NCBI RefSeq assembly: GCF_036669915.1
Contig: NC_089316.1
Location: 7,969,972-8,033,971 of the forward strand
Reading direction: 5' to 3'
Origin: Pocillopora verrucosa
Lineage: Eukaryota; Cnidaria; Anthozoa; Scleractinia; Pocilloporidae
Length of the DNA: 64,000 nt
Positions within the stretch are counted from its first letter, which is position 1. Each line of letters begins with the position of its first letter. Below the pieces are notes generated by a model. The model was not told the DNA's origin and ran no database searches. It saw nothing but the letters and a program-made list of their open reading frames with translations. A program made the position numbers and the translations under genes. Positions 1,698 to 62,853 of the stretch are shown piece after piece.

Positions 1698-3983
1698 ATA
1701 ATTTTACGCTACTTTGTGCACAAAAACGAATCGCTTTTTCATTGTGTTTTAAATGTTTAACAACCTTACACGAACTTTTACATGATGCAGACATGACACT
1801 ATCTGTAGAACCAAAAAACATTTAAGAATCCCTAACCTTAAAAGATTCCCTTACAATAATAGCGTCTAAGATCCTTATTTGAGTTATGCAAGCCAATGAA
1901 AGAGTTGCCAGTAATCGGGTCCTTGTGTTCTCGCAAAGATTTCTGGGATCGCCACGGGGCAAACATTACGACTGTTTCGAGGTCCAAAAGAACCATTATG
2001 GAGAGAGATCATCGCTTTTTCGCTGCCGTTTTATCAGAATTGGATTGGGTAATGTTGATACAAGGGAAGCGTGAGTTTTGTTTGAACAACCATGAAATAT
2101 GAGGTAAAATCCACCGATTAACTTTTCACCATGCGCAAGGTTTATTGTGAAATTGACATCTTGCACTGGTCTCAAAATTTAAACAAATTAGCTATAAATT
2201 GCCCAAAAATAACTCAATTAAGCCTTTTCAATTTTGTTTACGTGTGTTAAGTCTACTTCTAGCTTCTAGCTTTTTTCTTGGCTTGGTAATACAAGAGAGC
2301 GCTACAACAGTTACCTCGAAGCAGCAGGAGATTGAAATGGTGTGCTTGGGTATTAAATATTATCGCGGTGCATTGAAGTGGTTAAACACATACACTGCCT
2401 CTTTGCTGTGGTAAATGAGAACGAAACGGCATTAATAATCGGCGCAAAACTAAACCCTTTTTACTCTCCGAGGATATGTAGGTACAAATGGGTCGCTTAA
2501 GGAGCGATGCACACGCGAATATATGCCCACGGTTCCTGCTGGGACTTTCAGTAATTTGTCTCTTCTCCTCCAATGAGTTCCAGGAGAAAAGTGGCAGCAC
2601 AAAAATCTTGGGATTTTCTCAAACAAGCTATTATTTGACTTAGGGATTTCCTCGCGTTTTCATCGTTTAATTACTCCTTCCAACGAGCAACATCCCGGTA
2701 AAAATAATTTCCATCCCCGCCGACAAAGACTTCTCTCCTGTGAGGAGGTATATTTTTAGACGTCGTAATTTGTATATTTAATACGTTAACAGGTATGAAT
2801 TTAGGCTGTACATACATGAATACAACTGAAGAGACTTAAATGAGTTATTTCATAACGATTTATGGCGAACTTTCTAATATGTTGAGACCATTACGCCACG
2901 ACGATTTCACATAAGACCTTACATAAAGAGAGAAGTTTATCGGTACGTTTTATATTTCGTGTTAATTGTAACAAAAACTACACTTTCCGCGTATCAAAAT
3001 TATCTTAATCGATTTATGATAAAACTTCGGCAAAAAGTGTTGATCTCTTTCCAAAATAGGGCTTTTTATACGTCGACCTTTCACCATACATTTCATTTTA
3101 GCGAGTTGCAATGTTTGCCCTGTGGCGATCCTAGAAATCTTTGTACAAACACAAGGATCCAATTACTGGCAACTCATTCATTCGCGTTATGAATATAAAT
3201 AACTGGATGATGCTAATAGACAGAGAGTCATTGCACACTCCTGGGACTTAATTGTGTTACTACCAGATACCTCTGGGCTGGTATTGTTGTGTGGGAAATG
3301 AAGGTCAAAAATGTCTTAAACGCATTTGGTAGCATCCAGTTGAGATACAAACAACTAAAGGCTTTGATGGACGATTAAAGCAAGAGTTAACATAATTCTT
3401 TATAATGCTACCATTTCATTTTAGTTCCTTTGTTCATCATCATTGTCCAATCCAAATTCTTCTTTAAATTTTACTTAACGCATAGTTGTTCTTGTAAAAA
3501 AAGTAGTCCTTTCTGGTTGTTGTCGAACTGATTGACTTGAAAAATGTCGACAACAAAAAAGGTTATCTTTGATACCACAACCTTTAGTAATGTTTATTTC
3601 ATTTACTAGCCGACCCATGTTATAATTATCAAAACCTGAGTGATGCCAATAGAAAGAGCAGTTACGATACACCGGAATTTGAAGAAGACCTGTGTGACAA
3701 CCAACTCCCTTTGGGATAGTATCGTTTTGTGGGAGATGCAGGAACAAAAATGCCAACAACACGTGTGCCATCATACCGATGTGGTACACTCTTCCCAGGC
3801 TGGTTGGATGGTGCTCATCCTACAGTGGAAGATGGTAAAATTCAAAGGAAAGTTTGCTTTACTGATCGTAACCAAGGTTGCAAATACCATGCAACTATTT
3901 TGGTGAAAAACTGTGGATCTTACTTCATCTACAAACTTTTCCCCCCGCCTCGTTGTTCCTCACGCTACTGTGGTACAGACTGA

Positions 3984-12941: not shown

Positions 12942-15720
12942 ATGGCGTGGAATTCAAGCTTCTTTATCATCCTGGCCTCGTTGTATTTCAAAGACCTCGC
13001 TATTGCTAGAAATTCGTGCAAGACAGGAGTAAGCGTACCCGGTATGGCTCTCAAAGGATTCGTCTTTAAAAAGGTCCCAGTAACAGCTCCTCACGTGTGC
13101 GATGTCACCTGCGAGAGGGAGACGATATGTCAAAGCTACAATTATGTAATTGGGGAAAAGTCCTGTGAATTAAATACCCGAACCAAGGAAGCAAGGCCCG
13201 AAAATTTCCAGCCAGATGGTTTACGCTTTTACATGGGACGCATTAGTGGTAGAAGTATGTATCCGGTTTAGTTTCTTTTACCTACAAATCTTTCTCAGTG
13301 AGTTCCTAGTAAGACTTCGCTACTTTCCATGAGCTAATGTCCGATTGCTTTGCTACTAAGTAGCGTCAGTGTCTTAAAGCAAAATTCGCCTTCCATACAT
13401 ACATTGATATCAGCTAAACTTCTCAACTCTTAATTATTGTTATTCCATGTTTATCTTGCCCGGACAAACATATTTTCAGATCTAATCTGTTTTTCAACTT
13501 CTATTACCCTTAAACCATTAATGAAGTCATGTCTATATATTAGCCCCCTTAGGATCTATTCCTGAATTACCAGCGCCGTCGTGCCAAGAGATAAAATTAA
13601 GTGAAGGTAAAGACAGCATCAGTAAAAATTACTGGTTGGATCCAACTAATGTCGGGAGCTCAAAGTTGGCTTACTGCGACATGATTTTGGAAGGTAAGTC
13701 AGTATACCAAGAACAGAATTTACGCAGCGTTTGGTCTACCTTTGCCCTGGCCTTCAGTGAAATGTTTTCACCTTGTCTCAGTGATTTTTTCAATTAATTT
13801 TCAAATAGACATCGATGAATGTAAAGGCAGCAATGACGTATGTGACGAAAATGCGAACTGCTCCAATACTGTTGGGTTTTATAATTGCACCTGCAAAGAA
13901 GGATTTACTGGGGATGGACGCTCGTGTTCAGGTAAAATAGTTACAGACATGCCGAACTCTCAGAATCCTTTACCTTAACTGTTTCTCTTTACATTAGCAA
14001 ATTTGATTAATAAAACTTAATATTTAACTTATGCAAGCTAATTCGCGTATGATAATAAATAACTTGATAATGCTTATAAACAGAGAGTTATGACACTCTC
14101 CTGGAAAATAATTGTGTTACTACCGAATACCTCTGGGCTGATATCGTTGTGTGGGAGCTGAGGCTCACAAATGTCTTAAACGCATATGGTAGCATCTAGT
14201 TGAGGTACAAACAACTCAGGCTTTAATTGATGGGTAATTAAAGTAAGAGGAAACATAGTTCTTTATAATGCTACCATTTCATTTCAGTTCCTCTGAGCAC
14301 CATAACTGTGCAACGCAAATTCTTCTTTATAATTAACTTAGTGCATAATTTTTCTTGTAAAACACAATTCCTTTCTCGATGTTGTCGAACTGATTGTGTG
14401 AAAAAAATGTAAACAACAAAAAATGTTATCTTGATTCTACAATCTCTTTGGAGTGTTTATTTAATTTACTAGCCGAACCATGTTATAATTAACAAAACCT
14501 GGGTGATGTCAATGGAAAGAGCAGTTACGACACACCCCAATTTAGTCCAGTGCTTTGTAACGACTTACTCCCCGAGGGATGGTGTCTTTTTGTGGCAGCC
14601 GCAGGAAAACGCCAGTTGTTTCAGAGCCGTCACCTTAATAAATTGAAATATTCGTAATGATATATAGTTTACACTTCAAATGATTAATTAGAGAAACACA
14701 AAGAAGAGGAAAATTTGTTTTCATTATTTAAAATTATCAAAGGAATTTCACGACTGAGAGTCCGTCCATTTTAAAGTGGCAGACATATATAATAAAGTGC
14801 AAATATATATATGGTTTCTCAGATATTGACGAATGTAAAGGAAATCACTCTTGTCACGTGAATGCTATCTGCACGAACACCAACGGATCCTATGTTTGTG
14901 AATGCCAGCCTGGATATAATGGAAATGGTAAAAACTGCGAAGGTGAATATAATCTCTATGCTATAATACTTAGAATACTGTAAGGTATAAGGTTGCTGAG
15001 GTGTCCACTATCGGCCATATTATTAGTTTGTCGCATGTAAACGATGCTGGTTGTGCCTTAAGTCTGCCTAAAGCTATCCTTTAATGCGCTGTCTGAGAAA
15101 GAAGGAGCTCAAATTCGGATTCTGCTGAATTTATTTGGATCTCTAATATCACTTTTTTTAGCCTCTTGGAGTGATGATATCCTACACATGTACTACTTGA
15201 CCCTTAATTAATGCACAGTCGCTGTTCTTGTACAGTACAGGTCTCGCCACTGATTGGCAAGCTGCCACAATTATAAGACGTTAGAAAATATCTTGAAACA
15301 TTGATTTAAAGAACCTTAGCCCTTTAACGATTTTCATTTCACTTCGCAGTCGATCCTTGCTATCAATATAATAACCTGAGTGATGCCAATAGAAAGATAA
15401 GTTACGTAACACCTATCGGAGCAGAGTTGTGTGACAACTCACTTTCTGAGGGATGGTATCGTTTTGTGGAAGCTGCAGGAACAAAAATGCCAACAACGCG
15501 TGTGCCAGCAAACAGATGTGGTACAGATTGGTCTGGCTGGTTCTATGGAGCTCATCCTACAGCAGAAGATGGTGAAGTTTTCAGGACGGTCTGCTTTAGT
15601 GATCGTCACGACGGTTGCCAACATAGTGTAGAGATTTCTGTAAAAAACTGCGGATCCTACTTCATCTACAATCTTTTTCAGCCACAGGGTTGTGCCTCAC
15701 GCTACTGTGGTACAGACTGA
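12942..15720 (+). CDS. G2: secreted PAN/fibrinogen-like/EGF2/D8C protein
   Basis: Model: join(12942..13254, 13544..13693, 13809..13931, 14823..14942, 15350..15720), 1077 nt, 358 residues, no stop. All introns are GT-AG and phase 1. Exon 1 gives a signal peptide (MAWNSSFFIILASLYF...) and a PAN/apple-like domain ending RFYMGRISGR. Exon 2 is a 50-residue module with SCQEI, NYWLDP and YCDM, resembling the start of a fibrinogen-like domain. Exons 3 and 4 are calcium-binding EGF domains (DIDEC, six cysteines each). Exon 5 is a D8C domain with eight cysteines, as in uromodulin, GP2 and OIT3, but the stop follows directly and no ZP domain is present. The product is probably secreted and extracellular; ligand unknown. 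The start is the first in-frame ATG after the acceptor at 12930. Confidence 0.88.
14473..14609 (+). pseudogene. Truncated D8C exon relic inside G2
   Basis: In the intron between the two EGF exons, a copy of the D8C exon start follows an acceptor-like TTTACTAG: ADPC-like start, then TAA six codons later, then a recognisable GGATGG...GCAGCCGCAGGAA stretch, after which homology stops. The cut is at the same point as in the relics at 41012, 55568, 58424 and 62271. It cannot be a functional exon. Confidence 0.75.
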
Positions 15721-22432: not shown

Positions 22433-24374
22433 CTGTGTTAGGGGTCAGTACATTGAATTTTCCACACAGCCCACAAAAAACTTGGTTTCCAAAAGGAAAA
22501 CATTCAACATCAGTGACTCACTAGTTATTGAAGCTGAAATTAAAAAATTGCTTGACAAAGGTGTCATTGTACCCACTCAACATGAAAGTGGAGAATATAT
22601 TTCGCCTATTTTTGTGAAAGATGGATCATCTCGAATGATCTTAAATTTGAAAAGCTTTAACCAGCATGTTGAATACCAACATTTTAAAATGGACTCGGTC
22701 TGGACAGCAATTAGGCTCATGACCCCACATTGTTACATGGAGTCAATCGATTTAAAAGATGCTTACTATTTGGTCCCTATTGCAAAGCCACACCAGAAGT
22801 ACCTCAAATTTGAGTGGAACAACATGTTATTTCAGTTTACATGTTTTCCCAATGGGTTGGTCTTTTGCCCTAGGAAATTTACCAAGCTAATGAAACCAGT
22901 CTTTGCCACCCTTCGACAGCTTGGCCACTTATTGTCAGGTTACATAGATGACTCCTGGTTGATGGGGAGAGTCTGGGATGATTGTGCAAAAAATGTGGTT
23001 GACACGGTAAAATTATTAGACAGTTTGGGATTTGTGGTACACCCTGAGAAGTCGGTGTTCATCCCAACTCAAAAACTGGTATTTCTGGGTTTTACTCTAG
23101 ACTCAGTTAACATGCAAGTCTACCTTACACCTGATAAGGCTGTTAAGCTAAAACAGGCAGCTACTGTTATGTTGCACTGTAAAAAGCCTACTATTAGGGA
23201 TGTAGCCAAGGTCCTTGGGCTTATAGTATCTAGCTTTCCTGGTGTTGCCTATGGACCCCTTCACTACCGCTATTTAGAACGAGATAAAACTATAGCTCTT
23301 AATGCTAGCAAATGGAACTTTGATGCCACAATGTGCATATCCAGCCAAGCAGGTGAAGAGCTTAAGTGGTGGATTGAATCAATCGAGACTGCATCCAACC
23401 CGATAAATCGAGGAGAAGTAGATATTACCATTACTTCTGATGCCTCAAAACAGGGGTGGGGTGCAGCAACCAATGATTCTTCAACTGGGGGACTTTGGAC
23501 TGTTGAAGAGGCTAAGGAGCACATCAATTTTCTCGAAATGTTAGCTGTATTCTTTGCCTTAAAATCATTCAGTACTTTGACTCATGGCAAACATGTTAAG
23601 GTCATGGTCGATAATACTACCACTGAATCAACTATTAACCAGATGGGTACAAGCCACTCCCCTAAGCTAAACAAGCTAACTAAAGACATATGGGATTGGT
23701 GCATTAAGCACGATATATGGCTGACTATGGCTCGTATACCAGGGTGTGAAAATGTAAAGGCAGACAAAGAGTCGCGTACATTTAGGAGGTGTACTGAATG
23801 GTGCTTAAAGAAAACTCTCTTTGCAAGGGCTTGTACCAAGCTCAATGTTACCCCTAACATCGACCTATTTGCGTCTAGGATCAATTGCCAGATCACGCCC
23901 TATGTCTCTTATAGAGCAGACCCAGAAGCTTTTGCCATCAATGCTTTTCACATGTCTTGGCAACATTACTTATTTTATGCTTTTCCACCATTTAGCCTGA
24001 TAACAAGAGTTCTTCAAAAGATTCAAGAGGAGAAGGCAACAGGGCTTCTACTTGTTCCAAAATGGCCAACTCAACCGTGGTGGCCCAAGTTAATGCAGAT
24101 GTTAATACAACCACCAGTACAGCTTCCAAAGGACAGAGACACTCTGTTCCTACCCAGCAGCCCACAGGAACCTCATCCACTTCACAAGAAACTGTGCCTG
24201 ATTCTGTGTCACTTGTCCGGAGATACCTCAACGGCAAAGGCCTTTCGACAACAGCTACCACAGTCATGGAACACTCCTGGCGGTCAGGCACTAGAAAGCA
24301 ATATGCTACTTACCTTGAGAAATGGAGACGCTACTGTAGTACAAGGAGCATTGATCCCATTTGTCCCCCTGTAG
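22341..24374 (+). CDS. DIRS-type pol: reverse transcriptase and RNase H
   Basis: The frame is open from the stop at 22338-22340 to 24374. Upstream residues EELTSDSEVLNCVRGQYIEF are typical of the start of DIRS reverse transcriptases. Further motifs: SSRMILNLKSFN; SIDLKDAYYLVPI with the first catalytic Asp; FPNGLVFCPRKFTK; GYIDDSWL, catalytic YIDD at about 22941; and HPEKSVF...LGFTLDS. RNase H follows with TITSDASKQGWG, NFLEML, VMVDNTT and KADKESR, so all four acidic residues are present. The tail DLFASRI...AFPPF is typical of this group. There is no ATG in the gag overlap; the first is deep in the RT fold, so expression probably needs +1 frameshifting from gag. No DNA methyltransferase motif was seen. 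Confidence 0.9.
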   Translation, partial: PKAVSGTRSHFKNPSSDNRTEELTSDSEVLNCVRGQYIEFSTQPTKNLVSKRKTFNISDSLVIEAEIKKLLDKGVIVPTQHESGEYISPIFVKDGSSRMILNLKSFNQHVEYQHFKMDSVWTAIRLMTPHCYMESIDLKDAYYLVPIAKPHQKYLKFEWNNMLFQFTCFPNGLVFCPRKFTKLMKPVFATLRQLGHLLSGYIDDSWLMGRVWDDCAKNVVDTVKLLDSLGFVVHPEKSVFIPTQKLVFLGFTLDSVNMQVYLTPDKAVKLKQAATVMLHCKKPTIRDVAKVLGLIVSSFPGVAYGPLHYRYLERDKTIALNASKWNFDATMCISSQAGEELKWWIESIETASNPINRGEVDITITSDASKQGWGAATNDSSTGGLWTVEEAKEHINFLEMLAVFFALKSFSTLTHGKHVKVMVDNTTTESTINQMGTSHSPKLNKLTKDIWDWCIKHDIWLTMARIPGCENVKADKESRTFRRCTEWCLKKTLFARACTKLNVTPNIDLFASRINCQITPYVSYRADPEAFAINAFHMSWQHYLFYAFPPFSLITRVLQKIQEEKATGLLLVPKWPTQPWWPKLMQMLIQPPVQLPKDRDTLFLPSSPQEPHPLHKKLCLILCHLSGDTSTAKAFRQQLPQSWNTPGGQALESNMLLTLRNGDATVVQGALIPFVPL

Positions 24375-25163
24375 AGGAGGGAATCAATTTTCTTGCTGAA
24401 CTCTATGACTCTGGCATAGGATACAGTGCTATTAACACTGCGAGGAGTACCATCTCATCTATTGTTACATTGGCTAACAATATGTCGTTTGGTACCCACC
24501 CCATGGTGTGTCGTTTCCTCAAAGGCGTGTTTGAATTGAAACCTTCGCTCCCTAAATACAACAACATTTGGGATGTCAACACTGTCCTGGCTTACTTGTA
24601 AAACCTTCACCCACCTCCGAGCTTAACTTTGAAGGATCTCACCTTCAAAACGACAATGCTTTTAGCTTTGTTATCAGGGCAGAGGTGTCAGACACTGCAT
24701 TTGCTTTCTGTTAGCAATATGGTATTGAAGGACGATAGCTGTGTATTCATCATCAACAAACTTTTGAAGACCTCTCGGCCAGGAAAGCATGTGTCAGACT
24801 TAACATTCACAGCCTACTCACCAGACAACCGTCTGTGCCCTATCGTCTGCTTATCTGAATATGTCAAAAGGACAAGTCACCTTAGGAAAGGGAGTGACCA
24901 GCTGCTAGTGAGTTTCCAAAAGCCTCACAAGCCAGTTTCAACTGACACGACTTCTCGATGGCTAAAAACGGTTCTTGAAAAGTCAGGAATAGATACCTCA
25001 GTCTTTAAGGGACATAGCACCAAAGTGTAAGGTTCCATTGTCTACAATCATGGATAACGCAGGCTGGTCGAATGCGACAACCTTTGGGAGATTCTACAGG
25101 AAACCCATCGTCACATCAAGTAAAGCTTATGGACAACTCCTATTGGAGAACCTCCACACATAG
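24062..25163 (+). pseudogene. DIRS-type tyrosine recombinase, broken
   Basis: Starts at ATG 24062 and overlaps the pol end by about 310 nt in another frame. It reads SWRSGTRKQYATYLEKWRRY (core-binding part) and, after TAA at 24599-24601, continues in the same frame with LLALLSGQRCQTLHLL, holding the first catalytic Arg, and FKGHSTK, where Lys replaces the usual Arg of HxxR. The frame breaks near 25028, with about ten codons apparently lost. The last segment, in another frame, is VPLSTIMDNAGWSNATTFGRFYRKP with the catalytic Tyr, ending at TAG 25161. The element could not integrate with its own enzyme. Confidence 0.85.
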
Positions 25164-37801: not shown

Positions 37802-40800
37802 ATGGCGAGGAATTCAAGCTTCCTAATCCTACTGGCCTCTTTGTATCTCATGGACTTCGCTATTGCCAAAATGCCGTGCAAGACAGAAGTTAGCGTAGCT
37901 GGTATGGCTCTCAAAGGATTCGTCTTTAAAAAGGTTCCAGTAACAGCTCCTTACGTGTGCGATACCACCTGCGAAAGAGAAACGATATGTCAAAGCTACA
38001 ATTATGTAATTGGGGAAAAGTCCTGTGAATTGAACTCCCGAACCAAGGAAGCAAGGCCCGAGAATTTTCAGCCAGACGATTTACGCTTTTACATGGGACG
38101 CATTAGTGGTAGAAGTATGTATCCGGTTTAGTTTATTTTACATACAAATCTTTCTCAGTGAGTTCCTAGTAACAGCTCGCTACTTTCCGAGAGCTGGTGT
38201 CCGATCGCTTGGTTATTAAATAGGGTCAGTGTCTTAAAGCAAAATTCGCCTTCCATGCATACACTGATATTAGCTAAACTTCTCAGCTCTTAATTATTGT
38301 TCTTCCATGTTTATCTTGCCCGGACAAATATATTATCAGATCTAATCTGTTTTGCACTTAAACCATTAAATGAAGTCATGTCTATATTTTAGCCCCCTTA
38401 GGATCTATTCCTGAACTACCAGCGCTATCGTGCCAAGAGATAAAATCAAGTGAAGGTGAAGACAGCATCAGTAAAAATTACTGGTTGGATCCAACTAATG
38501 TCGGAAGCTCAAAGTTGGTTTACTGCGACATGAATTTGGAAGGTAAGTCAGTATACCAAGAACAGAATTTACACAACGTCTGGTCTACCTTTGCCCTGGC
38601 CTTTTGTGAAATGTTTTCACCTTGTCTCAGTGATTTCTTCGATTAATTTTCAAATAGACATCGATGAATGTAAAGGCAGCAATAAAGTTTGTGACGAAAA
38701 TGCAAACTGCTCCAATACTGTTGGGTTTTATAATTGCACCTGCAAAGACGGATTTACTGGGGATGGACGCTTTTGCTCAGGTAAACTAGTTACAGACATG
38801 CCGAGGTACAATATTTAATTATTTTTCGCCTAAAAACACTGGAGGTACATTTGAGCTATCTACAATCGAGTGAGTGAATAATAGACCAATAATACCTTGC
38901 ATGCTATATCAGTGGACCCTTAGCATCACACAACGCAATTTTAGCAGGAATGTCTATATATTAGCTGTCCTACAAGTGCTAAGTTTTGTTTTTTTTAAGC
39001 AGCATTACCCATACATGTTTATGCACGGAGTTGCCATGATCTACATCCGGTTTGTTTCAGAGCCATCATGTTAGGAGACTAAAAAAATAACATTGGAGAA
39101 GAAAATATAATATCTAGGTTGCACGTTTCAAAAATCTAGTTCGTTAAAGACGAAAAAGTGAAAGCTTTTTAAGTGCAAAATTCATTTACGGTTTCTCAGA
39201 TATTGACGAGTGTAAAGGAAATCACTCCTGTCACGTGAATGCGAAGTGCAATAACACCCTTGGATCACATACATGTGAATGTCAGCCTGGATATACTGGA
39301 AATGGACAAAACTGCAAAGGTGAATTTAATGTCTTCGTTACAATATTTAGAATAGTCCTGCATGACTACAGCGCCGCACCAGTCAGCCGTGTTGCAAGAC
39401 AATTAGATAATTTATTACTCATATGTAACTCGTTATGATTTAGGCAGCCGTTCCTCATGTTTAGAACCTTCTAGGTAACGTCCCTGATTTTTAAATGAAC
39501 AATCTTGGTGACTTATGTATTGTTTTTCTCCACTAAAATTAACCTTATCACAATGATTGACAGAAGCATGAAAGTAGAATCGCTCGCTTGGCTCTGAACC
39601 TTGTGCACAGGATAGATATGTGAGTGATTTTCGATGGTGCTACGTTTTCGCTGACGCTTAAGATATATTTGAGAGAAAAAAGTTGAAAATTATTATCATC
39701 AAGTTTTATAAAATAATCAAGATACTACGGGCGCCCTGACTGGCCAAAAAACAACCGTTGATTGCACCGATAAACCCATGGAAAACTAAAGTTTAAATTA
39801 CTAAAGTAACAGACAGCACTTTCTATCGGATTACCAGCGTAGTAAACGTCTCCAGATGTTGGGAAACCATTCGAAAAAAAAAAAAAAGGAAATTTATCGC
39901 CTCCAGCTCGTAATTACAAACTTATGTCATGTCCTCACAACATCCCGCGTGGGTTATCTGGACAGCAAACTGATAGAAAGAGCGATGAATAAAGGGGGTA
40001 AGGTTCTAAAGAAGCTGTGGTGCTGCGTCGGTGGGAGAGTATAATAGGGTAATTAAGTATTATCAACAATTTTTTACTTTGTATTGTACATTGACGAACG
40101 TAGCGAGGCCCATCCCTTTAAAATGAATAAATGCCATCCGAATGCACCTTGCACTAGTACCCAGGGCTTGTACAATTTCTCTTGCAATCCCACGCTTATT
40201 GGAGATGGTTTTGATTGTCAAGGCTAGTTTGGTTTTTGGAGGTGATTAAATTTTTGTTTGGTTCCCACGTTGAATGTAGCAGTAAATTTCTTAGAGTTTA
40301 CTTTCATCCGACATTCACATCGAGGAGGCATACTTTTACGCTCCCTTGAGCACAAGAACGAATCAACTTTTGATTATAGGGGGTAAGTTTCTAAAGAAAC
40401 TGTAGTGCTGCATCGGTGGGAGAGTATAGCAGGTAATTCAGTGTTACCAACCAAGTTGAAAGCGTAAATTGGCCACTGTAAAGAGTAAAAAAGCTAATCT
40501 ACGTTTTCAACTCAGTTGTTAACACTAAATTACCAACTGATTATGTTTTAAATGATTTCAAAACCTTACACAAACTTTAACATGATGCAGACACGATACT
40601 CTCCGTGGCACTTAAAAACTCTTTAATAATCTCTAACCTTCCAAGATTCTCTTATAATAAGAGCAGTTATGATCAATCAAACTTATTTGACTTATGCAAG
40701 CCAATTCGCGTTATGATTACAAATAATTGGATGATGCTAGTGAGCAGAGAGTTATTACTCTCTCCTAGAAAATAATTGGGTACAAGCGAATACTTCTCGG

Positions 40801-41593
40801 CTGGCATCGTTGTGTGGGAGCTGAGGATCAATACTGAGGATGAAAAAATGTCTTAAACGCATTTTGCAGCATCCAGTTGAGGTACAAACAACTCGGGCTT
40901 TGATGGGCGATTAAAGAAAGAGGAAACGTAATTCCTTATGATGCTATCATTTCATTTTAGTTCCTTTGAGCATCATCATTGGCTAACCCAAGTTCTTCTA
41001 ACCCGAATTCTTCAAAACCTGAGTGACGCTAATAGAAAGAGCAGTTAAGCTACACCAAAATTTGGTCCAGCGTTTTGTGGCAACTTACCCCCCGCGGAAT
41101 TTTTTTTTTTGAGGGGGGGGGGGGGGGTATCAGGAACAAGCCAGTTGTTTCAGAGCCTTCTGGTTTAGAAGGTTATCTTTGTTACTACAACCTTTTTTTG
41201 TAATGTTTATTTCATTTAGTAGCCGACCCATGTTATTATCATCAAAACCTGAATGATGCCAGTAGAAAGAGCAGTTACCCAACACCCCAGAAACAAGAGG
41301 TGTGTGACGACCACCTTGTTGAGGGATGGTATCGTTTTGTGGGAGCTGCAGGAACAAAAATGCCAACAACGCGTGTGCCAGCATACAGATGTGGTACACA
41401 GTGGTCTGGCTGGTTGGATGCTGATCATCCTACAGTGGAAGAAGATGAAGTTCGAATGACGGTCTGCTTTAGTGATCGCTCTACTGGTTGCCGATACACA
41501 GGAACTATTTCTGTAAAAAACTGTGGATCTTACTTTATCTACCGACTTAAAAAGCCACCTAATTGTAACTCACGCTACTGTAGTACAGACTGA
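37802..41593 (+). CDS. G3: secreted PAN/fibrinogen-like/EGF2/D8C protein
   Basis: Model: join(37802..38114, 38393..38542, 38658..38780, 39200..39319, 41223..41593), 1077 nt, 358 residues, all introns GT-AG in phase 1. Domains are as in G2: signal peptide (MARNSSFLILLASLYL...), PAN-like domain, module with SCQEI/NYWLDP/YCDM, two calcium-binding EGF domains (DIDECKGSNKVC..., DIDECKGNHSCHVNAKC...), and D8C with eight cysteines ending SRYCSTD-stop. A third EGF-like exon at 40088-40222 is dead and left out. The PAN part is close to G2, but the second EGF and D8C are closer to G4, so the gene is a mosaic. Secretion is supported by the N-terminus; the ligand is unknown. Confidence 0.88.
40088..40222 (+). 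pseudogene. Dead EGF exon in G3
   Basis: Homologous to the intact G1 exon 1424-1558. The acceptor CAG has become TGT, the donor GT has become GC, the DEC cysteine is Arg (DER), and the CSC pair has become FSC. The open frame is otherwise kept ([20 protein letters not shown]). It is most likely skipped in splicing. Confidence 0.85.
40432..40534. repeat. Foldback repeat fragment in G3 intron
   Basis: A shortened copy of the foldback family: GGTAATTCAGTGTTACC at the left and TTAACACTAAATTACC at the right, with one TTGGCCACTGT arm. It has an equivalent at 61692-61794 in G4. Confidence 0.5.
41012..41138 (+). pseudogene. Truncated D8C exon relic in G3
   Basis: TCAAAACCTGAGTGACGCTA onward matches the D8C exon start, then runs into a poly-T/poly-G tract (about 41099-41127) where GGGATGGTATCG should be, and ends at CAGGAACAAG. 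It stands about 85 bp before the functional D8C exon. Confidence 0.7.
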
Positions 41594-43736
41594 ATGTTAA
41601 GCCAATATATTTCGCGCAGTAAGAGGACTCACAAATCGCTCCGTAAGTACATGTGTACGAGGTTTTGTCATGTGACGTATTCAACCTTTCTTCTCTATCA
41701 TAGACATTATCAGCAGATTTTAACTTTGGTGGCAAACAGGTATTCAATTCATTAGAATGATAATTCTCATCGGAAAGCCTTTGTCGTTGAAGAGAGAATT
41801 GCCCGAAGGATCTTTAAAGTAATCTTTAAGTAAAATCTATAAGACACAAACTCTCAAGCTTATGGTTTTCGAGTGATGACAGTCAAAATCTGATGTCCTC
41901 TGATGTTATATAAAGTTAAAGTAACAATAGTGACTCAGTATTTTGAAACGTTAAACCAATTTCCAGACACAGTAAGCAAAATTCAATGGTTTAGCTTGCA
42001 TAACCGTGTGTTAAATGTGTCCGAATCGACCAAAATTCATTTGAAATTAATGGATCGCTTACATCTCACGCTTATTTTGAATCAAAGTTAGAGATCTTTA
42101 CGCAATGGCTTCAAAGTGTCCCTATACAGCTTTCTTAACTAAGAGCACGGGCACTTCATTCATTCAAGACGAAATTTGTTAAAATAATTTTATATAGGTA
42201 ATCACGCGTTTCCAGTGCAATTTGAGATAAAACAGAACGAGAAAATTTCATCGACTAACCAAAATTGCATGAACCTGTAAGGCGAGTGCAACTTGCATAT
42301 GTATTATTAAGTTTAAAAGCTGCTTGTAGCTTTTAAAAGTTGACCTGTTTTACTACGGTTAATGTTTGCCTACAACATTAACACGCTAAAAGAAAGGTAT
42401 TCAGAACTGCGATGTGTTAAAAACAAGTATTTAGAGTAGCAAAGGTAAACACAAGTTTTCCTTTTTTATAATGCAAACATATTCAAAGAATCCTATGAAA
42501 AATAATATGCGCAGAAAAGAAACCCACCCCCACCACAACCCACAAAGGCTACTGCCTGATATTTCAATATTCTAGCCGAGACTAGTCTTCCAATCATTTA
42601 ATGTTCATTTGTCTCTACTTTACAAGAAGAGACCTGAACGCAAAGCAAATGGGGCAGAGCAGGGCGAGTTAATTGACAACGTATCGAAACATAGAAAAAT
42701 CGTCGGTGGACTTTTCAAAGCAAAGTGACATGAGCTGGGTCACTTTGTGGCTCAGCTTCTTGAGTGGTGTAAGTATAAGGGCATCGTGTATATTACCTCA
42801 TTATTTAACAAAAACTGTGTATCACTTTGTAAATACATTTACCTTACACGGATTATTTTCAGCTGAATTTCATGACACGAACACGACAATAAATGTTAAG
42901 GGCAGTGTAGTCTATGGGTCAGAGTAGGTTCTCGATACCATTCATCTAATGAAAGGTTATGTGAAAGACTTTTCAAATTCACTTGATAGCATCGCGAAAG
43001 AGTAGCTTACACCATTTTTTAGTGGAGTTAATGTAAATAACCAGGGAAAAATAACAACAACAACAAGGAAATGTTCGGGCAAATGCATGAAACCAGAACC
43101 CAGTGAAGTAAAAACAGAGCCATAAATCAAAACTGGGTTTAACTTTACATCGCAACGATTCAGTAACAAATGGAGAAATTTATTGAAAAAGATTTTAACG
43201 TAAGTAACAGAAAAGAAAAATACGATAATTTTTAACTTAATATTGAACATTTTTCTTCATTAATTGCAAGTAGTTTTCACAAGTAATGTTTGAATAATTA
43301 TGAAGTTAATAGTAATTTTAAAAAAAACTTGCAAAAGGCATCTCTTGTACTTCATGCCTTTGTTAGTACTAAGGGATGTACATAAATTTGATACCCGTAA
43401 GGGACAAGGTGGGGAGGGGGGGGGGGGGTTCTTTATAAAAGAACAATGGGAGAAGTCATTGTTATCCTTAGGACCTGAGAATAGTCATGGATACCTTTTG
43501 CGTTGTTGTAAATAAATTGCTCTGAAAAAAATTCATATTCACATGCCGCTAGTAAATGAAGTTACCGATAAAATGTGTAAACGCACTGGGCGGTTAACTT
43601 CGCACGGTTAATATATTTTTTTTCCGTAAATGAATCCGTCGGAACTGTTGCAGAATGAAGCCTGGTAATAAAACCACGTGCCGTAATATTACCCATCGTC
43701 TCCCGTTGCTGGATTGCATTATTTATCCTGTCGACG
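41594..43736. other. Intergenic 3' flank of G3
   Basis: No gene. Paralogous to 3984-6294 and 62854-64000. G-rich tract at about 43411-43428 followed by the conserved AACAATGGGAGAAGTCATTG block. Convergent carrier copy B begins at 43737. Confidence 0.6.
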
Positions 43737-52127: not shown

Positions 52128-55100
52128 ATGCAAGTAAAAGGTATGTTGTGGATATTCCAAAATTTAAGATTCCTCCTCTTCGCCTCTGCCATGGAGTTTG
52201 TCACAGCTGACGATCAATGTAGGAACAATGTATACATAGAAGGGATGGCTCTCAGGTGTTCGGTCTTCAAAAGATGGTCAGTAGCGGCTCCTCACCTCTG
52301 CGATGTCAAATGCGGACAAGAGATCACATGCCAAAGCTATAACTACAATCAAAAATACCAAATATGTGAACTAAATAACCGCACCAAGGAGGCGAGACCA
52401 GAGAATTTCCTTTCAGCTCCCGCGTGGTTTTACATCCGGCGATTGAACGGCAGAGGTAAGAAAGTGATTGTAAGTGATTCCTATTTCTTTAAATCTTCTC
52501 CATCCTCAGCCTGATTCCTTCTCACCCGGAAGAACTAAGAAAAGGAAGTGAACGTAAAACATATCTTTACTTCAGCTCCATTAGGTTCTATCCCTGAATT
52601 ACCAGCGCTGTCTTGTCGGGAAATAAAGGATAGTGAAGGTAAACACACCATAAGCGGCAAGTATTGGCTCGATCCAACTGGGAAAGGAAAGGCAAAACTG
52701 ATTTACTGTAATATGGTTAACGAAGGTAGGTCCTATGAGTTTGAATGAGTTATTTTATTTTGTAACGAGTTATAGGTATCATGAAATTATTATAAATTAT
52801 ACTATTATTGATATCATCATCGTAATATTTGGTTTGGATCAGTTCTATGGAGGATGTCTCTCTCAAGTTGCTCTAACTTAGTCACTGCTTCTCTTTCCAC
52901 ATTCTAGATATGGACGAATGTAAATTTAACATCAGTGACTGCGACGTGAATGCAAACTGTACTAACACGTATGGTTCTTACAAATGCACATGTAAAGTGG
53001 GATACACTGGCGATGGACACTCATGTTCAGGTAATTTTGAAGATTACCTTATTAATATTTCTAAATAAAACTAATTTTTGTAAATCGTCTCATAATTTAG
53101 AGCAGCGTTACCCATGCACGTATTTATGCACAGAGTTACCATGCTCTACATCTTGCTTGTTTCAGAATAGTCAGGTTGATAAATTCAACTATTTGTGCTG
53201 AAATTTATGTAGCACTAAAAGAGAAACATTTGTCTTATAATTTGTGATGATTAAAGGAATTAACCGACTAAGAGTCATAAAAACGATAAGATGCAAAAAT
53301 GTATCGATGATTTTTCAGATATTGACGAGTGTAAAGGAAATCACTCTTGTCACATGAATGCTATCTGCACGAACACAAAAGGATCGTACGTTTGTAATTG
53401 TCACCCCGGATATACTGAAAATGGACGCGGCTGCGCAGGTATTTGATGCGTTTCTTTTGTAACCATTTTCATCAGAAAGAAAAGCACTATCATCGTTGTA
53501 AAACTTGTTTTGCCATTATACCTTGTATTGAGAAGAGATGAATGTAGACCTGAAGACAATATTGATGATGACACAATTGTTTTAAATAAACATTCAGGGG
53601 AAAAAAATCTCAGCTGGCAAAGGAAGACTTAATGGATGGGCTCACAGGACAGAACAATGGATTAAACTCGCGCGGAATCAAGAAAAAAATTTAGTGAGCG
53701 CTTAAGTGAGGTGCTTGCGTCTAGGACCCAAGAAAACAAGATTAAGGTTTCTAAGTTTATACTCGGCAACTTCTTCCCGATTGCATTTTTTTAAATTTGT
53801 TTCAAAAATTTTGGAGGATCAAAGGAATTAACCTTGACGCATTTCTTTTGAAACCATTTCCATCAGAAAGAAAAGCACTATCATATTTGCGAAGCTTGTT
53901 TTACAAGCATACCTTGTATTGACCCTTTCACTCCTAAGATCTCATTAGTAATTCTGTTTACAGTCTACCATACAATTCATACGATGTTAGTTCTAAGAAT
54001 TTGGTATTGAATCAACTGATAATCCTCAAGCTGATATTTTTTCTTATTCTCGTCATTTGTCTGTTTGATATTGTAATGATTTAGTAAGGAGAAATTCTCT
54101 CTTGGTCATTAAAGGAAGTTAGATGGTTAAGTAAACATTCAGTGTAAGTTAAAAAATCTCCACTGGTAAAGGGAGACTTGATAGACAGGCTTACAGGACA
54201 GAACAACAGATTTAAACTTGGGGGAACCGAGAAAAAATCTGGTGAGTGGTTGTGTGAAGCACTTGCGTCTGGAACCACAAGACAACAAGACTAGGGTTTC
54301 TTACGTTATGTTCGGCAACTTTTTTTCAATTACAGTTTGTTTGTTTTTTTTTTTTGGTTATTTTTATGATTTTACAGATATCAACGAGTGCAAAGGAAAT
54401 CACTCTTGTCACGTGAATGCTACATGCGTGAACACCCTTGGATCACATGTATGTCAATGTCATGTTGGATATACTGGAAATGGACAAAACTGCACCGGTG
54501 AATTTAATTTCTTCTCTACAATATTTTTAATTGTCCTGTATGGATTCCGGCTACGGCGCTGCACCATTCAGCTGCGTTCCAAGACAATTAGATAATTTAT
54601 TACTCATTACTGGTTTTGATTTAAGCAGTCGTTTCTCGTGTTAAGAACCTCTTAGGTAATGTCACTGACTTTTAAATTAACAATTTTGGTAACTGATGCA
54701 TTGTTATTCTGCTTTTAATGGATTCTAAACAAGTCATTGACAAAGTCATGAAAATAAAATCGCTCGTTTGGCTCTGAACCCTGTGCACATGATAGATATG
54801 TACGTGACTTTCCATGGCGCTACGTTTTCGCTGATATATTTGAAAGAAAAAAGTTGTAAATTATTATCATCAAGTTTTATAAAATAGTCAAGATAATATG
54901 AGCGCACTGATTGGTCAAAATTAACTATTATAGGGGGGAAGTTTCTAAAGAAACTTTGGTGCCGCGTCGGTGGAAGAGTATAGCAGGTAATTTAGTTAAC
55001 AACTGAGTTCAAAATATAAATTGGCCACCGTAAAGAGTAACAAGTGCTAATCAGCCTTTTTACTCTTTACGGTGGCCAATTTACGTTTTCAACCCAGTTG

Positions 55101-58100
55101 TGGACACTAAATTACCAACTTTTGATTATGTTTTAAATGATTTAAAAACCTTACACAAACTTTAATGTGATGCAAACATGACTCTCGGTGGAACTTAAAA
55201 ACCGTAAAAGAATCTCTAACCTTCCAAGATTCCTTTATAAAAAGAGCAGTTATGATCAATCAAACTTATTTGACTTACGCAAGCCAATTGGCCTTATGAT
55301 TACAAATAATTGGATGATGCTAGTAGGCAGAGAGTTATTACACACTCCTAGGAAATAATTGGGTACTAGCGAATACTTCTGGGCTGGTATCTCTGTGTGG
55401 GAGCTGAGGATCAAAAATGTCTTAAACGCATTTGGTAGCATCCAGTTGAGCCGGTGAAAACAACTCAGGCTTTGATGGGCGATTAAAGCAAGAGGAAATG
55501 TAATTCTTCATAAAGCTATAATTTCATTTTAGTTCCTTTGTGCATCATCATTCTCTAACCCAAATTCATCAAAACCTGGGTGACGCTAATAGAAAGAGAA
55601 GTTAAGCTACATCAAAATTTGGTAAGCTGTTTTGTGACAACTTACTCCCCGCGGAATTTTTTTTTCTGTTTTTTTTTTTGGGGGGGGGGGATGACAAAGC
55701 AGGAACTGTTTCAGATCGGTCTGGTTGATAAATTGTAATATTCGCCATGAAATATACGCTTCAAATATCTAATTTGTAAAGCAAACAAAAAAAAAAAGGA
55801 CATGAGTTTTGTTGTTTACAATTATTAAAGTAATTACACGACTGAGACCCATTTTAAAATGAATAACGTGATAAAGTGCAAATATACAAATGGTTTCTCA
55901 GATATTGACGAGTGTAAAGGAAATCACTCTTGTCACGTGAATGCTATCTGCACGAACGCCAAAGGATTGTACGTCTGTACTTGTCACCCCGGATATACTG
56001 GAAATGGACACAACTGCACAGGTATTTGATGCGTTTCTTCTGTAACCATTCCCATCAGAAAGAAAAGCACTATCATCGTTGCAAGACTTGTTTTGCCAGC
56101 ATACCTTGTGTAAAAAAGAGATGAATGTAGGCCTGAAGACAATGTTGATAATGACACAATTGTATTAAATAAACATTCAGTGGTAAAAAAATCTCAACTG
56201 GCAAAGGGGGACTTGATGGATGTGCTTACAGGACAGAACAACAGATTTAAACTCGCGGGAAACCAAGAAAAAAATCTAGTGAGCGCTAAAGTGAAGTGCT
56301 TGCGTCTAGGACCCAAGAAAACAAGACTAAGGTTTCTAACCTTATGCTCGGTAACTTCTTCCCAATTGCATATTTTAAAATGTATTCTTTTTTTATGTTA
56401 TCATTTTACAGATATTAACGAGTGTAAAGGAAATCACTCTTGTCACGTAAATGCTACATGCATGAACACCAAAGGATCGTATGTCTGTACTTGTCACCCA
56501 GGATATACTGGAAATGGAAGCGACTGCACAGGTACTTGATGCATTTCTTTTGAAACCATTTCCATCAGAAAGAAAAGCACTATCATATTTGCGAGACTTG
56601 TTTTACCAGCATACCTTGTATTGACCATTTCACTCCTAACATCTCATCAGTAATTCTGCTTACTGTCTACCATACAATTCTCATGATGTCAGTTCTAAGA
56701 ATTTGGTATTGAATCTACTGATAATCCCCAAGCTGATATTTTTCCTTATTCTCGTCACTTGTCTGTTTGATATTGTAATGATTTGGTAAGGAGAATTTCT
56801 TTCTTGGTCATTAAAGGGAGTTAGGTGGTTAAGTAAACATTCTGTGTAATGTAAAAAATCTCCACTGGTAAAGGGAGACTTGATAGATAGGAACAGATTT
56901 GAACTTGGAGGAACCGAGAAAAAAATCTGGTGAGTGGTTGTGTGAAGCATTTGCGTCTGGAACCACAAAACAACAAGACTAGGGTTTCTTACGTTATGTT
57001 CGGCAACTTTTTTTTTAATTACAGTTCGTTTCTTTAGTTATGTTTACGATTTTACAGATATCAACGAGTGCAAAGGAAATCACTCTTGTCACGTGAATGC
57101 TACATGCATGAACACCCTTGGATCACATGTATGTCAATGTCATGCTGGGTATATTGGAAATGGACAAAACTGCACAGGTGAATTTAATTTCTTCGCTACA
57201 ATATTTTTAATAGTCCTGTATGCTTTCCGGCTACAGCGCCACACCATTTTGCCGCGTTGCAAGACAATTAGGTAATTAATTACTCATTACTGGTTTTGAT
57301 TTAGGCAGCCATTTCTCATGTCAAGAACCTCTTAGGCAATGTCCCTGACTTTTAAATGAACAATTTTGGTGACTGATGCGTTGTTCTCCTTTAAAATTAA
57401 CCTTATCACAATGACTGACAGGAGCATGAAAGTAAAATCGCTCGTTTGGCTCTGAACCCTGTGCACAGGATGGATATGTAAATGATTTTCCAAGACGCTA
57501 CGTTTTCGTTGACATTCAAGATATATTTGAGGGAAAAAGTGGAAAATTATTATCATCAAGTTTTATAAAATAGTCAAGATACTACGAGCGCCCTGATTGG
57601 TTAAAAAACAATCGTTGATCGCACCGGTAAACCTGTGGAAAATTGAAGTTTATATATGTTATTAAAGTAACAGACCGCACTTTCTATCGGTTTACCAGCG
57701 TAGTAAACGTCTTCAGATGTTGGGAAACCATTCGAAAAAAAAGTAGATCAGTTGCTTCCAGCTCGTTTTGACAAAATCCAGCGTGGATTATATCGCCAGT
57801 AAACTGAGAGAAAGAGCGATAAATAAAGGTTCTACAAAAACTGCGGTGCTGCGTCGGTGGGAGAGTGCAACAGGGTAATTTAGTATTATCAACTGAGTTG
57901 ATGAGGTAAATTGGCCACCGTAAAGAGTGCTGCAGCGAATGCTCGAAACGTCAGCTTTGAAACTCTTTACAGAGGCCAATTTGCATTATCAACTCAGTTG
58001 ATAAGGTAAGAAAAATAATGGGGAAGGAAAAAAATCTAAAAGAAATGGCAGGTTGAGTCCTGAAGGGATTGTGTATTTTTCTCTGACCTTATCTGACCCT

Positions 58101-61100: not shown

Positions 61101-62853
61101 AAACGTCTCCAGATGTTGGGAAACCATTCGGAAAAAAAAAAAAAAAGGAAATTAATCGCCTCCAGCTCGTAATTACAAACTTATGTCATGTCCTCACAAC
61201 ATCCCGCGTGGGTTATCTCGACAGTAAACTGATAGAAAGAGCGATGAATAAAGGGGGTAAGGTTCTAAAGAAGCTGTGGTGCTGCGTCGGTGGGAGAGTA
61301 TAATAGGGTAATTAAGTATTATCAACAATTTTTTTACTGTGTATTGTACATTGACGAATGTAGCGAGGCCCATCCCTTTAAAATGAATAAATGCCATCCG
61401 AATGCACCTTGCACTAGTACCCAGGGCTCGTACAATTTCTCTTGCTATCCCACGCTTATTGGAGATGGTTTTGATTGTCAAGGCTAATTTGGTTTTTGAA
61501 GGCGATGAAATTTTTGTTTGGTTCCCACGTTGAATGTAGCATTAAATTTCTTAGAATTTACTTTCATCTGACATTCACATCGAGGAGGCATACTTTTACG
61601 CTCCCTTGAGCACAAGAACGAATCAACTTTTAATTATAGGGGGTAAGTTTCTAAAGAAACTGTAGTGCTGCGTCGGTGGGAGAGTATAGCAGGTAATTCA
61701 GTGTTACCAACCAAGTTGAAAGCGTAAATTGGCCACTGTAAAGAGTAAAAAAGCTAATCTACGTTTTCAACTCAGTTGTTAACACTAAATTACCAACTGA
61801 TTATGTTTTAAATGATTTCAAAACCTTACACAAACTTTAACATGATGCAGACACGATACTCTCCGTGGCAATTAAAAACTCTTTAATAATCTCTAACCTT
61901 CCAAGATTCTCTTATAATAAGAGCAGTTATGATCAATCAAACTTATTTGACTTATGCAAGCCAATTCGCGTTATGATTACAAATAATTGGATGATGCTAG
62001 TAAGCAGAGAGTTATTACACTCTCCTAGAAAATAATTGGGTACTAGCAAATACTTCTGGGCTGGCATCGTTGTGTGGGAGCTGAGGATCAAAACTGAGGA
62101 TGAAAAATGTCTTAAACGCATTTGGCAGCATCCAGTTGAGGTACAAACAACTCGGGCTTTGATGGACGATTAAAGCAAAAGGAAACGTAATTCCTTATGA
62201 TGCTATCATTTCATTTTAGTTCCTTTGTGCATCATCATTGGCTAACCCAAATTCTTCTAACCCGAATTCTTCAAAACCTGAGTGACGCTAAGAGAAAGAG
62301 CAGTTAAGCTACACTAAAATTTGGTCCATCGTTTTGTGGCAACTTACTCCCCGCGGAATTTTTTTTTTGAGAGGGGGGGGGGGGGGGTATCAGGAACAAG
62401 CCAGTTGTTTCAGATCCTTCTGGTTTAGAAGGTTATCTTTGTTACTACAACCTTTTTTTGTAATGTTTATTTCATTTACTAGCCGACCCATGTTATTATC
62501 ATCAAAACCTGAATGATGCCAGTAGAAAGAGCAGTTACTTAACACCCCAGTACCAAGAGGTGTGTGACGACCACCTTGTTGAGGGATGGTATCGTTTTGT
62601 GGGAGCTGCAGGAACAAAAATGCCAACAACGCGTGTGCCAGCATACAGATGTGGTACACAGTGGTCTGGCTGGTTGGATGCTGCTCATCCTACAGTGGAA
62701 GAAGGTGAAGTTCGAAGGACGGTCTGCTTTAGTGATCGCACTACTGGTTGCAAATACGCAACATATATTTTTGTAAAAAACTGTGGATCCAACTTCATCT
62801 ACAAACTTAAAAGCCCACCTGGTTGTCCCTCACGCTACTGTAGTACAGACTGA
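52128..62853 (+). CDS. G4: secreted PAN/fibrinogen-like/EGF8/D8C protein
   Basis: Model: join(52128..52455, 52576..52725, 52908..53030, 53319..53438, 54378..54497, 55902..56021, 56412..56531, 57058..57177, 58752..58871, 60448..60567, 62483..62853), 1812 nt, 603 residues, no stop, all junctions GT-AG and phase 1. Signal peptide (MQVKGMLWIFQNLRFLLFAS...), PAN-like domain (CQSYNYNQKYQICELNNRTK), module SCREI/YWLDP/YCNM, eight calcium-binding EGF domains (one of 41, seven of 40 residues), then D8C with eight cysteines ending SRYCSTD. The first two exons differ clearly from G2 and G3, while the last EGF and D8C are close to G3. Seven EGF exons are exactly 120 nt and arose by duplication of exon plus intron. 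Real transcripts may skip some of them. Confidence 0.85.
53930..54125 (+). repeat. Dispersed repeat in G4 intron, copy 1
   Basis: From CCTTTCACTCCTAAGATCTC to TTGGTCATTAAAGGAAGTTA. It recurs at 56628-56825 as part of the duplicated EGF-intron unit. The complementary ends (CACTCCTAA and TTAAAGGGAGTTA in the second copy) suggest an inverted-repeat element. Confidence 0.55.
54986..55116. repeat. Foldback repeat in G4 intron, best example
   Basis: Arms GGTAATTTAGTT...AAATTGGCCACCGTAAAGAG and CTCTTTACGGTGGCCAATTT...CACTAAATTACC are complementary over most of about 55 bp, separated by about 25 bp. Non-coding. Confidence 0.7.
55568..55704 (+). pseudogene. Truncated D8C exon relic in G4 (first)
   Basis: ATCAAAACCTGGGTGACGCT onward matches the D8C exon start, with frame-breaking changes (AGTTAAGCT), then poly-T/poly-G at about 55659-55690, then GCAGGAACTGTTTCAG. 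It stands before the EGF exon at 55902. Confidence 0.65.
56628..56825 (+). repeat. Dispersed repeat in G4 intron, copy 2
   Basis: Paralogue of 53930-54125 at the same place relative to the next EGF exon, so copied with the unit 53830-54600 / 56560-57280. Confidence 0.55.
57874..58004. repeat. Foldback repeat in G4 intron
   Basis: GGGTAATTTAGTATTATCAA...AATTGGCCACCGTAAAGAG and AACTCTTTACAGAGGCCAAT...ATCAACTCAGTTGATAAGG. Same family as 54986-55116, with a GCTCGAAACGTCAGC centre. Confidence 0.65.
58424..58548 (+). pseudogene. Truncated D8C exon relic in G4 (second)
   Basis: ATAATTATCAAAACCTGGGT onward matches the D8C exon to GGAGCAGCAGGAACAAG, including GACGACCTATCCCCCAAGGGATGG. The motif GGTATCG has become GGTACG, a 1-nt deletion. 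It precedes the EGF exon 58752, exactly as 14473-14609 precedes its counterpart in G2. Confidence 0.7.
59539..60435. mobile_element. 897-bp insertion with 17-bp target duplication
   Basis: ACGGTTTCTCAGATATT occurs at 59522-59538 and 60436-60452; G3 has it once (39188-39204) with matching sequence on both sides. The insert therefore landed across the splice acceptor and first bases of an EGF exon, duplicating 17 bp. The length fits target-primed retrotransposition, but no poly-A tail or known coding motif is seen. Confidence 0.8.
61348..61482 (+). pseudogene. Dead EGF exon in G4
   Basis: Counterpart of 40088-40222, with the same lost acceptor (TGT for CAG), the same GC donor and the same Cys-to-Phe change (YNFSC), but it still has the DEC cysteine that G3 lost. 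Skipped in the gene model. Confidence 0.85.
61692..61794. repeat. Foldback repeat fragment in G4 intron
   Basis: Counterpart of 40432-40534 in G3, nearly identical. Confidence 0.5.
62271..62398 (+). pseudogene. Truncated D8C exon relic in G4 (third)
   Basis: Counterpart of 41012-41138: TCAAAACCTGAGTGACGCTA, then a poly-T/poly-G tract (about 62359-62387), then CAGGAACAAG. It lies about 85 bp before the working D8C exon. Confidence 0.7.

Follow-up and report, generated by a model that had tools for sequence, protein, structure and literature searches.

The analysed window, a stretch of 64,000 nucleotides, lies within a 28.8-Mb contig (C5) of the 353-Mb genome of Pocillopora verrucosa and contains four gene copies (G1–G4) ending in a D8C domain. 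The segment of interest covers the 3′ half of the last exon of G3, a secreted PAN-EGF-EGF-D8C ("uromodulin-like") gene that belongs to a large tandem family in this coral. In our splice model, G3 encodes a 358-residue protein in five exons on the forward strand (37802-38114, 38393-38542, 38658-38780, 39200-39319, and 41223-41593), in the order signal-peptide-like start, PAN, short collagen-C-terminus-like piece, EGF, EGF, and D8C, after which the stop codon follows at once. The main coding features are:

37802..38114, + strand: G3 exon 1, signal-peptide-like start (judged by eye) and PAN domain (Pfam PAN_1, E 1.3e-07)
38393..38542, + strand: G3 exon 2, fibrillar-collagen-C-terminus-like piece (Pfam COLFI), with AG/GT splice sites
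38658..38780, + strand: G3 exon 3, first EGF domain (Pfam EGF_3 and EGF_CA), with splice sites
39200..39319, + strand: G3 exon 4, second EGF domain (Pfam EGF_3 and EGF_CA), with splice sites
41223..41593, + strand: G3 exon 5, terminal D8C exon (Pfam D8C_UMOD, E 6.6e-11; phmmer match to uromodulin, E 1.5e-19)
62483..62853, + strand: terminal D8C exon of G4 (Pfam D8C_UMOD, E 1.3e-10)
15350..15720, + strand: terminal D8C exon of G2 (Pfam D8C_UMOD, E 1.6e-13)
3610..3983, + strand: terminal D8C exon of G1, whose reading frame is broken by a TAG where the conserved WYRF motif has its Trp

Codon 1 (Asp) of the G3 D8C exon starts at 41225, and the stop codon TGA occupies 41591-41593. The D8C domains of G3, G4, and G2 score 42.7, 41.8, and 51.1 bits against Pfam PF23283 (D8C_UMOD), above the curated cut-off of 27 bits; the match of exon 2 to COLFI (E 1.2e-05, 25.2 bits) is slightly below its cut-off of 26.2. 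A protein from Pocillopora meandrina (P0121) aligns with the G3 model across all 358 residues with three differences, two of which fall in D8C (codons 34 and 74). The G3 gene is therefore real and conserved between P. verrucosa and P. meandrina, including the loops that look hypervariable, and since these loops are identical in the two species, they do not change fast at the species scale. Another P. meandrina protein, P0132, has a PAN exon nearly identical to that of G2 together with an unrelated D8C and no EGF domains, which reflects either an exchange of exons between species or a join made by gene prediction.

Family size and genomic setting

The genome holds at least 40 close relatives of the D8C exon, as judged from a DNA search in which the best 40 of 151 candidates were scored; 36 of these 40 full-length matches lie within C5:7.03-8.49 Mb. 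A family search, scoring the best 150 of 356 candidates, yielded at least 150 D8C matches, all above the cut-off, of which 79 of the 150 are on C5. A second cluster is found at 15.0-15.7 Mb of C5 (L049-L076). Its members have a ten-cysteine form of the domain in which an insert of variable sequence (SSSII...) follows the second cysteine, their architecture is likewise PAN-EGF-D8C (P0147), and the TQC and CC motifs are kept in 19 of 22 and 22 of 22 copies, respectively. Two further features of the window concern its organization. Four more copies of the second EGF exon precede the G4 D8C exon (54185-60695), so the EGF exons too are being multiplied, and several long open frames, one with a reverse-transcriptase-like stretch recognized by eye, are present inside the gene cluster at 21236-25030, which is probably a retroelement.

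Codon differences between G3 and G4

The D8C exons of G3 and G4 had originally been compared by eye, and the counts made then are accurate. Sixteen of codons 67-122 differ, 14 by replacement and two silently (TCT/TCC at codon 102 and TTT/TTC at codon 104), and codons 1-66 are changed at codons 19 and 23 alone, both times by replacement and each at two positions. Seven of the 14 replaced codons in the second half involve two bases, as had been said of several of them, and the loop strings quoted for G1–G4 are present in the sequence. The 3′ flank, described as differing by roughly 10%, diverges by 10-13% per 100 bp over 41600-41999 and then by 5-10% to 42460.

The original prediction held that the ratio of replacement to silent changes, not the divergence, was the telling feature. 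Here we arrive at the reverse. For codons 67-122, dN is 0.177 and dS is 0.077, giving a ratio of 2.31 with a one-sided Fisher p of 0.13, and for the whole D8C exon dN/dS is 2.16 (p = 0.16). By itself, the replacement excess in this pair is thus statistically insignificant and no proof of selection, whereas a jump in divergence along the exon, described below, is informative. Of the two proposed causes, diversifying selection or the import of segments by gene conversion, both gain support from the analyses that follow, but not from the G3/G4 ratio that had been used to argue for them. The sites that distinguish G3 from G4 are also those that vary across the family, with a mean entropy of 2.01 versus 0.68 bits (p = 1e-6) among 120 homologues, which are those listed of 749 proteins and include G3 itself as P0002.

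A mosaic terminal exon

The two halves of the D8C exon have different histories, the change taking place in the following region:

39188..41422, + strand: 5′ block recently common to G3 and G4 (60436-62682 in G4), comprising the last EGF exon, the intron, and D8C codons 1-66
41321..41422, + strand: conserved D8C core, codons 33-66, where the common history of G3 and G4 ends, as defined by differences, silent diversity, and the switch of nearest relative

A single BLAST alignment joins 39188-41869 to 60436-63129 at 95.1% identity. Within it, divergence is 0-6% per 100 bp across 39200-41399 and jumps to 17% at 41500, the flank staying at the level given above; codons 24-66 are without a single difference. 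In 150-bp windows compared among the best 40 of 151 copies, G3 and G4 are mutually closest, with 95-99% identity, as far as the window 41323-41472. Starting at 41423, the best match of G3 is L012 (87.3%, versus 84.0% for G4), and further 3′ it is L017, L015, L020, or G2 (L038, 96.0% at 42023-42172). On the 3′ side of G4, the best match passes from L015 to L017 of contig C11 (96.0-98.7% across 62783-63032) and on to L012, which reaches 99.3% at 63883. The margin by which the 3′ nearest relative surpasses the partner copy is large for G4 and small in several windows for G3. The jump in divergence therefore marks the end of the closest kinship of G3 and G4, at about 41,420, and makes the D8C exon a mosaic.

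The same shift runs through the family, in which the start of the exon agrees with the upstream intron and its end with the 3′ flank. Among the best 40 of 151 copies, pairwise identities on the 5′ side (intron and first codons) and the 3′ side (codons from about 67 on and the flank) are almost uncorrelated, with a rho of 0.16, and the nearest neighbour is identical on both sides for 14 of the 40. In the 34 intact copies used for codon analyses, the correlation with the upstream intron is 0.58 for codons 1-12 and about zero by codon 25, that with the 3′ flank is 0.34 for codons 105-120, and the middle codons are correlated with neither side. The PHI test for recombination gives a modest signal in this cluster (cluster 1; p = 0.027), and a p of 0.107 in the second cluster. 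Silent diversity is lowest in codons 33-72 (pS 0.07-0.21), the codons before them (1-32) having a pS of 0.24-0.45 and those after them (73-120) one of 0.26-0.36. Because the core is nearly identical where G3 and G4 separate, it is a plausible joint for exchange.

Two remnants in the window, at 14473-14607 and 58420-58548, match no more of the D8C exon than its initial ~135 bases, with 74-75% identity and the second half absent, and would fit a break in the middle of the exon. Chimeras are also seen among metagenome proteins: P0001 and P0004 have one 5′ half with different 3′ halves, and P0034 combines another 5′ half with G3-like loops. These are suggestive at most, because the contigs, two of which measure 1.2-2.5 kb, may be misassembled.

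Evidence for positive selection in cluster 1

Codon models were fitted to 34 copies, a set that leaves out five non-intact copies and L028, whose exon is identical to another, and from which the two additional residues of L043 were trimmed. Naive site models give 2dlnL values of 249.9 (M1a/M2a) and 217.4 (M8a/M8). The same tests were applied to 16 null simulations in which four segments recombined, silent rates varied, and multi-base changes occurred, but without positive selection, and they returned 2dlnL values of 72-181 in all 16. Since the nulls mimic selection, standard site tests cannot be trusted here, and M1a/M2a, M7/M8, and M8a/M8 were dropped as evidence. Piecewise tests lacking silent-rate classes (codons 82-99 and 33-66) share this weakness and were set aside as well.

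We replaced these models by one with two silent-rate classes and multi-base changes, under which the real data yield a 2dlnL of 43.1-43.6, compared to a maximum of 13.0 in the 16 null simulations (small negative values in null runs being optimiser noise). The value is 34.2 without codons near indels; for codons 67-122, it is 28.6, and 41.3 without indel codons. About 20% of codons fit a w near 2.4, and a posterior of at least 0.8 is reached at codons 19, 22, 30, 33, 66, 67, 77, 92, 93, 94, 109, 110, and 115 and at one insertion column. This set includes six of the 14 replaced codons that separate G3 from G4 (67, 92, 93, 94, 110, and 115). When the 19 most variable codons, picked from the 120 listed database homologues, are treated as a fixed class, their w is 1.89 (p = 5e-5). 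Among 14 disjoint pairs of close copies, pN/pS is 1.30 (p = 0.022) at the variable codons, 0.67 at the remaining ones, and 0.89 for the whole exon. The dN/dS among more paralogues, which had been set beforehand as a refuting test, is thus above 1 at part of the codons in this cluster, and positive selection is well supported in cluster 1 after control for recombination. For the second cluster, the richer model gives a 2dlnL of 11.6 with 22 of 40 fetched copies (the duplicate L053 and all non-matching types left out), which is inside the null range of cluster 1; selection is therefore supported in cluster 1 and not family-wide.

The foremost alternative is recombination without positive selection. 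Here, conversion would have joined old, diverged halves, the loops would be old and unconstrained, and the replacement excess would arise from shuffling, multi-base mutation, and uneven silent rates. The behaviour of the naive tests on the simulated nulls is what this explanation predicts, and the insignificant G3/G4 ratio, the close-pair value for the whole exon, and the weak result for the second cluster are all in line with it. Moreover, the silent rate is itself elevated at the variable codons (28.7, compared to 8.5 at conserved codons), and this roughly threefold increase means that part of the variability reflects rate or age, not selection. However, the richer model separates the real data from all 16 recombinant nulls and does so without the indel regions, and the variable codons keep a w above 1 as a fixed class under their own silent rate. 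We accordingly consider recombination alone to be unlikely.

Constraint on the family

Most of the copies appear to be under constraint. The D8C exon is intact in 35 of the best 40 of 151 copies; seven of its eight cysteines are kept in all 34 copies of the codon set and the other in 33, and the 44 most conserved codons have a w of 0.16. Between G2 and G3, dN/dS is 0.17 for PAN, a comparison from which the G4 figures were left out because its PAN exon had been cropped to five residues, and 0.30 for the first EGF. In the second EGF exon, which was assumed to be free of diversification, the 15 pairs compared have about 25 silent sites and dN/dS values between 0.18 and 1.66. The broken copies are L015, L034, L036, L037 (G1), and L042. 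L042 (C5:7.856 Mb) shares with G1 the position of its TAG in the WYRF motif, L036 has a TGA in a loop, and L015 and L034 are without one open frame.

The five broken copies out of these 40, G1 among them, together with a dN of 0.177 against a dS of 0.077 in the second half of G3 and G4 beside a flank that diverges by 10-13%, might be taken to mean that surplus copies are drifting toward pseudogenes and accumulating neutral replacements. Such relaxed constraint is highly improbable given the retention of the cysteines, the low w of conserved codons, the near-unchanged state of G3 as a full gene in P. meandrina, the PAN ratio, and a w above 1 at some codons. Least credible of all is an artefact of assembly or haplotypes in which the mosaic is non-biological, G3 and G4 being alleles that were misjoined or collapsed: the breakpoint does lie within a near-identical stretch prone to misjoins, some copies are 97-100% alike (L027/L028 and L034/L042) and may be haplotype duplicates, and two of the metagenome chimeras sit on contigs of 1.2-2.5 kb, but G3 and G4 are 21 kb apart on one 28.8-Mb contig, G3's pairing of halves is found again in P. 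meandrina, and the discordance between the 5′ and 3′ sides extends across the best 40 of 151 copies.

Position of the variable loops relative to human uromodulin

The variable sites were mapped onto human uromodulin using a phmmer alignment and the text of PMC8930769:

41279..41299, + strand: variable loop, codons 19-25, by entropy; P(w>1) 0.96 at codon 19 and 1.0 at codon 22
41417..41425, + strand: variable site at codons 65-67 that corresponds in the alignment to N232 of uromodulin and its sequon, by entropy; P(w>1) 0.87 at codon 66 and 0.81 at codon 67
41480..41512, + strand: variable loop that surrounds the fifth cysteine (codons 86-96), by entropy; P(w>1) 0.80, 1.0, and 1.0 at codons 92-94
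41543..41569, + strand: variable loop, codons 107-115, starting at the position of uromodulin N275, by entropy; P(w>1) 1.0 at codon 109, 0.94 at codon 110, and 0.99 at codon 115

In this alignment, the loop of codons 86-96 falls at and just 3′ of the presumed extent of the light-chain epitope. As far as the alignment can be relied upon, the selected sites adjoin the positions of the N232 and N275 glycans and of the light-chain epitope in human uromodulin. The epitope is described as a strand/loop/strand region with its disulfides (PMC8930769). A pattern search found a sequon at the N275 position in none of the 120 listed homologues, and an N232-type sequon in 1 of the 120 and in 2 of the 34 copies (L013 and L019). 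In these two copies, codons 65-67 form an N-x-S/T sequon exactly at the N232 position (WLNGSHP and WLNGTYP). The best structural matches of an AlphaFold model are uromodulin and GP2; the model is weak (pLDDT 66), too weak for judging burial.

Relation to known systems

In the human gut and urinary tract, the uromodulin/GP2 fold serves to catch bacteria. The coral domain resembles the D8C/D10C of these proteins in its sequence match (E 1.5e-19 to uromodulin), in its Pfam D8C_UMOD score above the cut-off, and in the EGF domain ahead of D8C. It differs in several respects. The human D10C has ten cysteines including a C3-C6 pair, whereas cluster 1 of the coral has eight, the C3 and C6 positions being lost in all 34 copies. 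In the human filament proteins, D8C is followed by a ZP module, whereas in G1–G4 the stop comes directly after D8C, as it also does in the P. meandrina counterpart of G3. Decoys for FimH carry a high-mannose glycan at N275 (or GP2 N65), and the N275 sequon is missing, by pattern, from all 120 listed homologues. Finally, uromodulin and GP2 are single genes, whereas the coral family consists of many tandem copies with variable loops.

Genes of the same PAN-EGF-D8C architecture are present as "uromodulin-like" in NCBI for stony corals (Pocillopora, Stylophora, Porites, Montipora, Acropora, and Oculina), where they are known as record names only; the P. verrucosa records carry D8C exons of cluster 1. 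In the open-licence literature searched, we found no description of the diversification of this family. The domain and the annotated gene family were thus already known, and what is new here is the swap joint within the exon and the selected loops. Tachylectin-2 of Oculina, a coral protein with a putative role in recognition, has been described as highly variable in its amino acids and positively selected (Hayes et al. 2010, PMC2880987); it is a different protein whose signal lies among alleles (244 alleles), whereas the present case concerns shuffled halves of tandem paralogues. Coral receptor and extracellular families have been reported to be amplified in tandem, those that contain EGF reaching a greater abundance in Pocillopora cf. 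effusa than in Porites lobata (PMC10236652); the main text of that paper does not use the term uromodulin, and the D8C exon is not analysed in it. Cnidarian genes of the uromodulin type are reported to be raised in a symbiotic anthozoan, where they bear the label "cell adhesion/recognition, bacterial defense" (PMC3141003), at the wounds of Nematostella (PMC4229989), and in Acropora exposed to heat (PMC12830885). These genes may be other members of the family.

Proposed model

Taken together, we regard a mosaic of exon halves combined with positive selection on the loops of a putative family of secreted binders as the likely explanation of the observed pattern. Non-allelic gene conversion or unequal crossing-over, aided by the near-identical core, would create new pairings of 5′ and 3′ halves, and selection would retain replacements on exposed loops. 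The product would be a secreted binder whose copies differ in ligand, and by analogy with the GP2/uromodulin decoy module the ligands would most likely be microbial surfaces or glycans; its role might lie in defence, symbiosis, or self-recognition. A varied secreted binder of microbial or cell-surface ligands appears to fit best, and shuffled halves and selected sites are features to be expected in a diverse array of candidate recognition proteins.

A more far-reaching version of the model is possible, and we offer it tentatively. Pocillopora may have turned the uromodulin/GP2 decoy fold into a germline repertoire of secreted recognition proteins, in which the mid-exon core acts as a swap joint between 5′ halves (PAN-EGF and N-terminal loops) and 3′ halves (the C5-C7 loop and the loop on the N275 side). 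Loss of the C3-C6 disulfide in cluster 1 might then have freed a loop that forms the rigid light-chain epitope in human uromodulin, letting it evolve into a diversifying site that binds microbes, symbionts, or tissue of non-self corals.

For the study of such families, our results indicate that ordinary dN/dS site tests can mislead on shuffled tandem copies, as all 16 simulated nulls appeared positive. Corals are not known to make antibodies, and their known repertoire of highly variable recognition molecules is small. If the proposed explanation is true, this family would provide a concrete, expressible candidate for the recognition of microbes or symbionts by corals.
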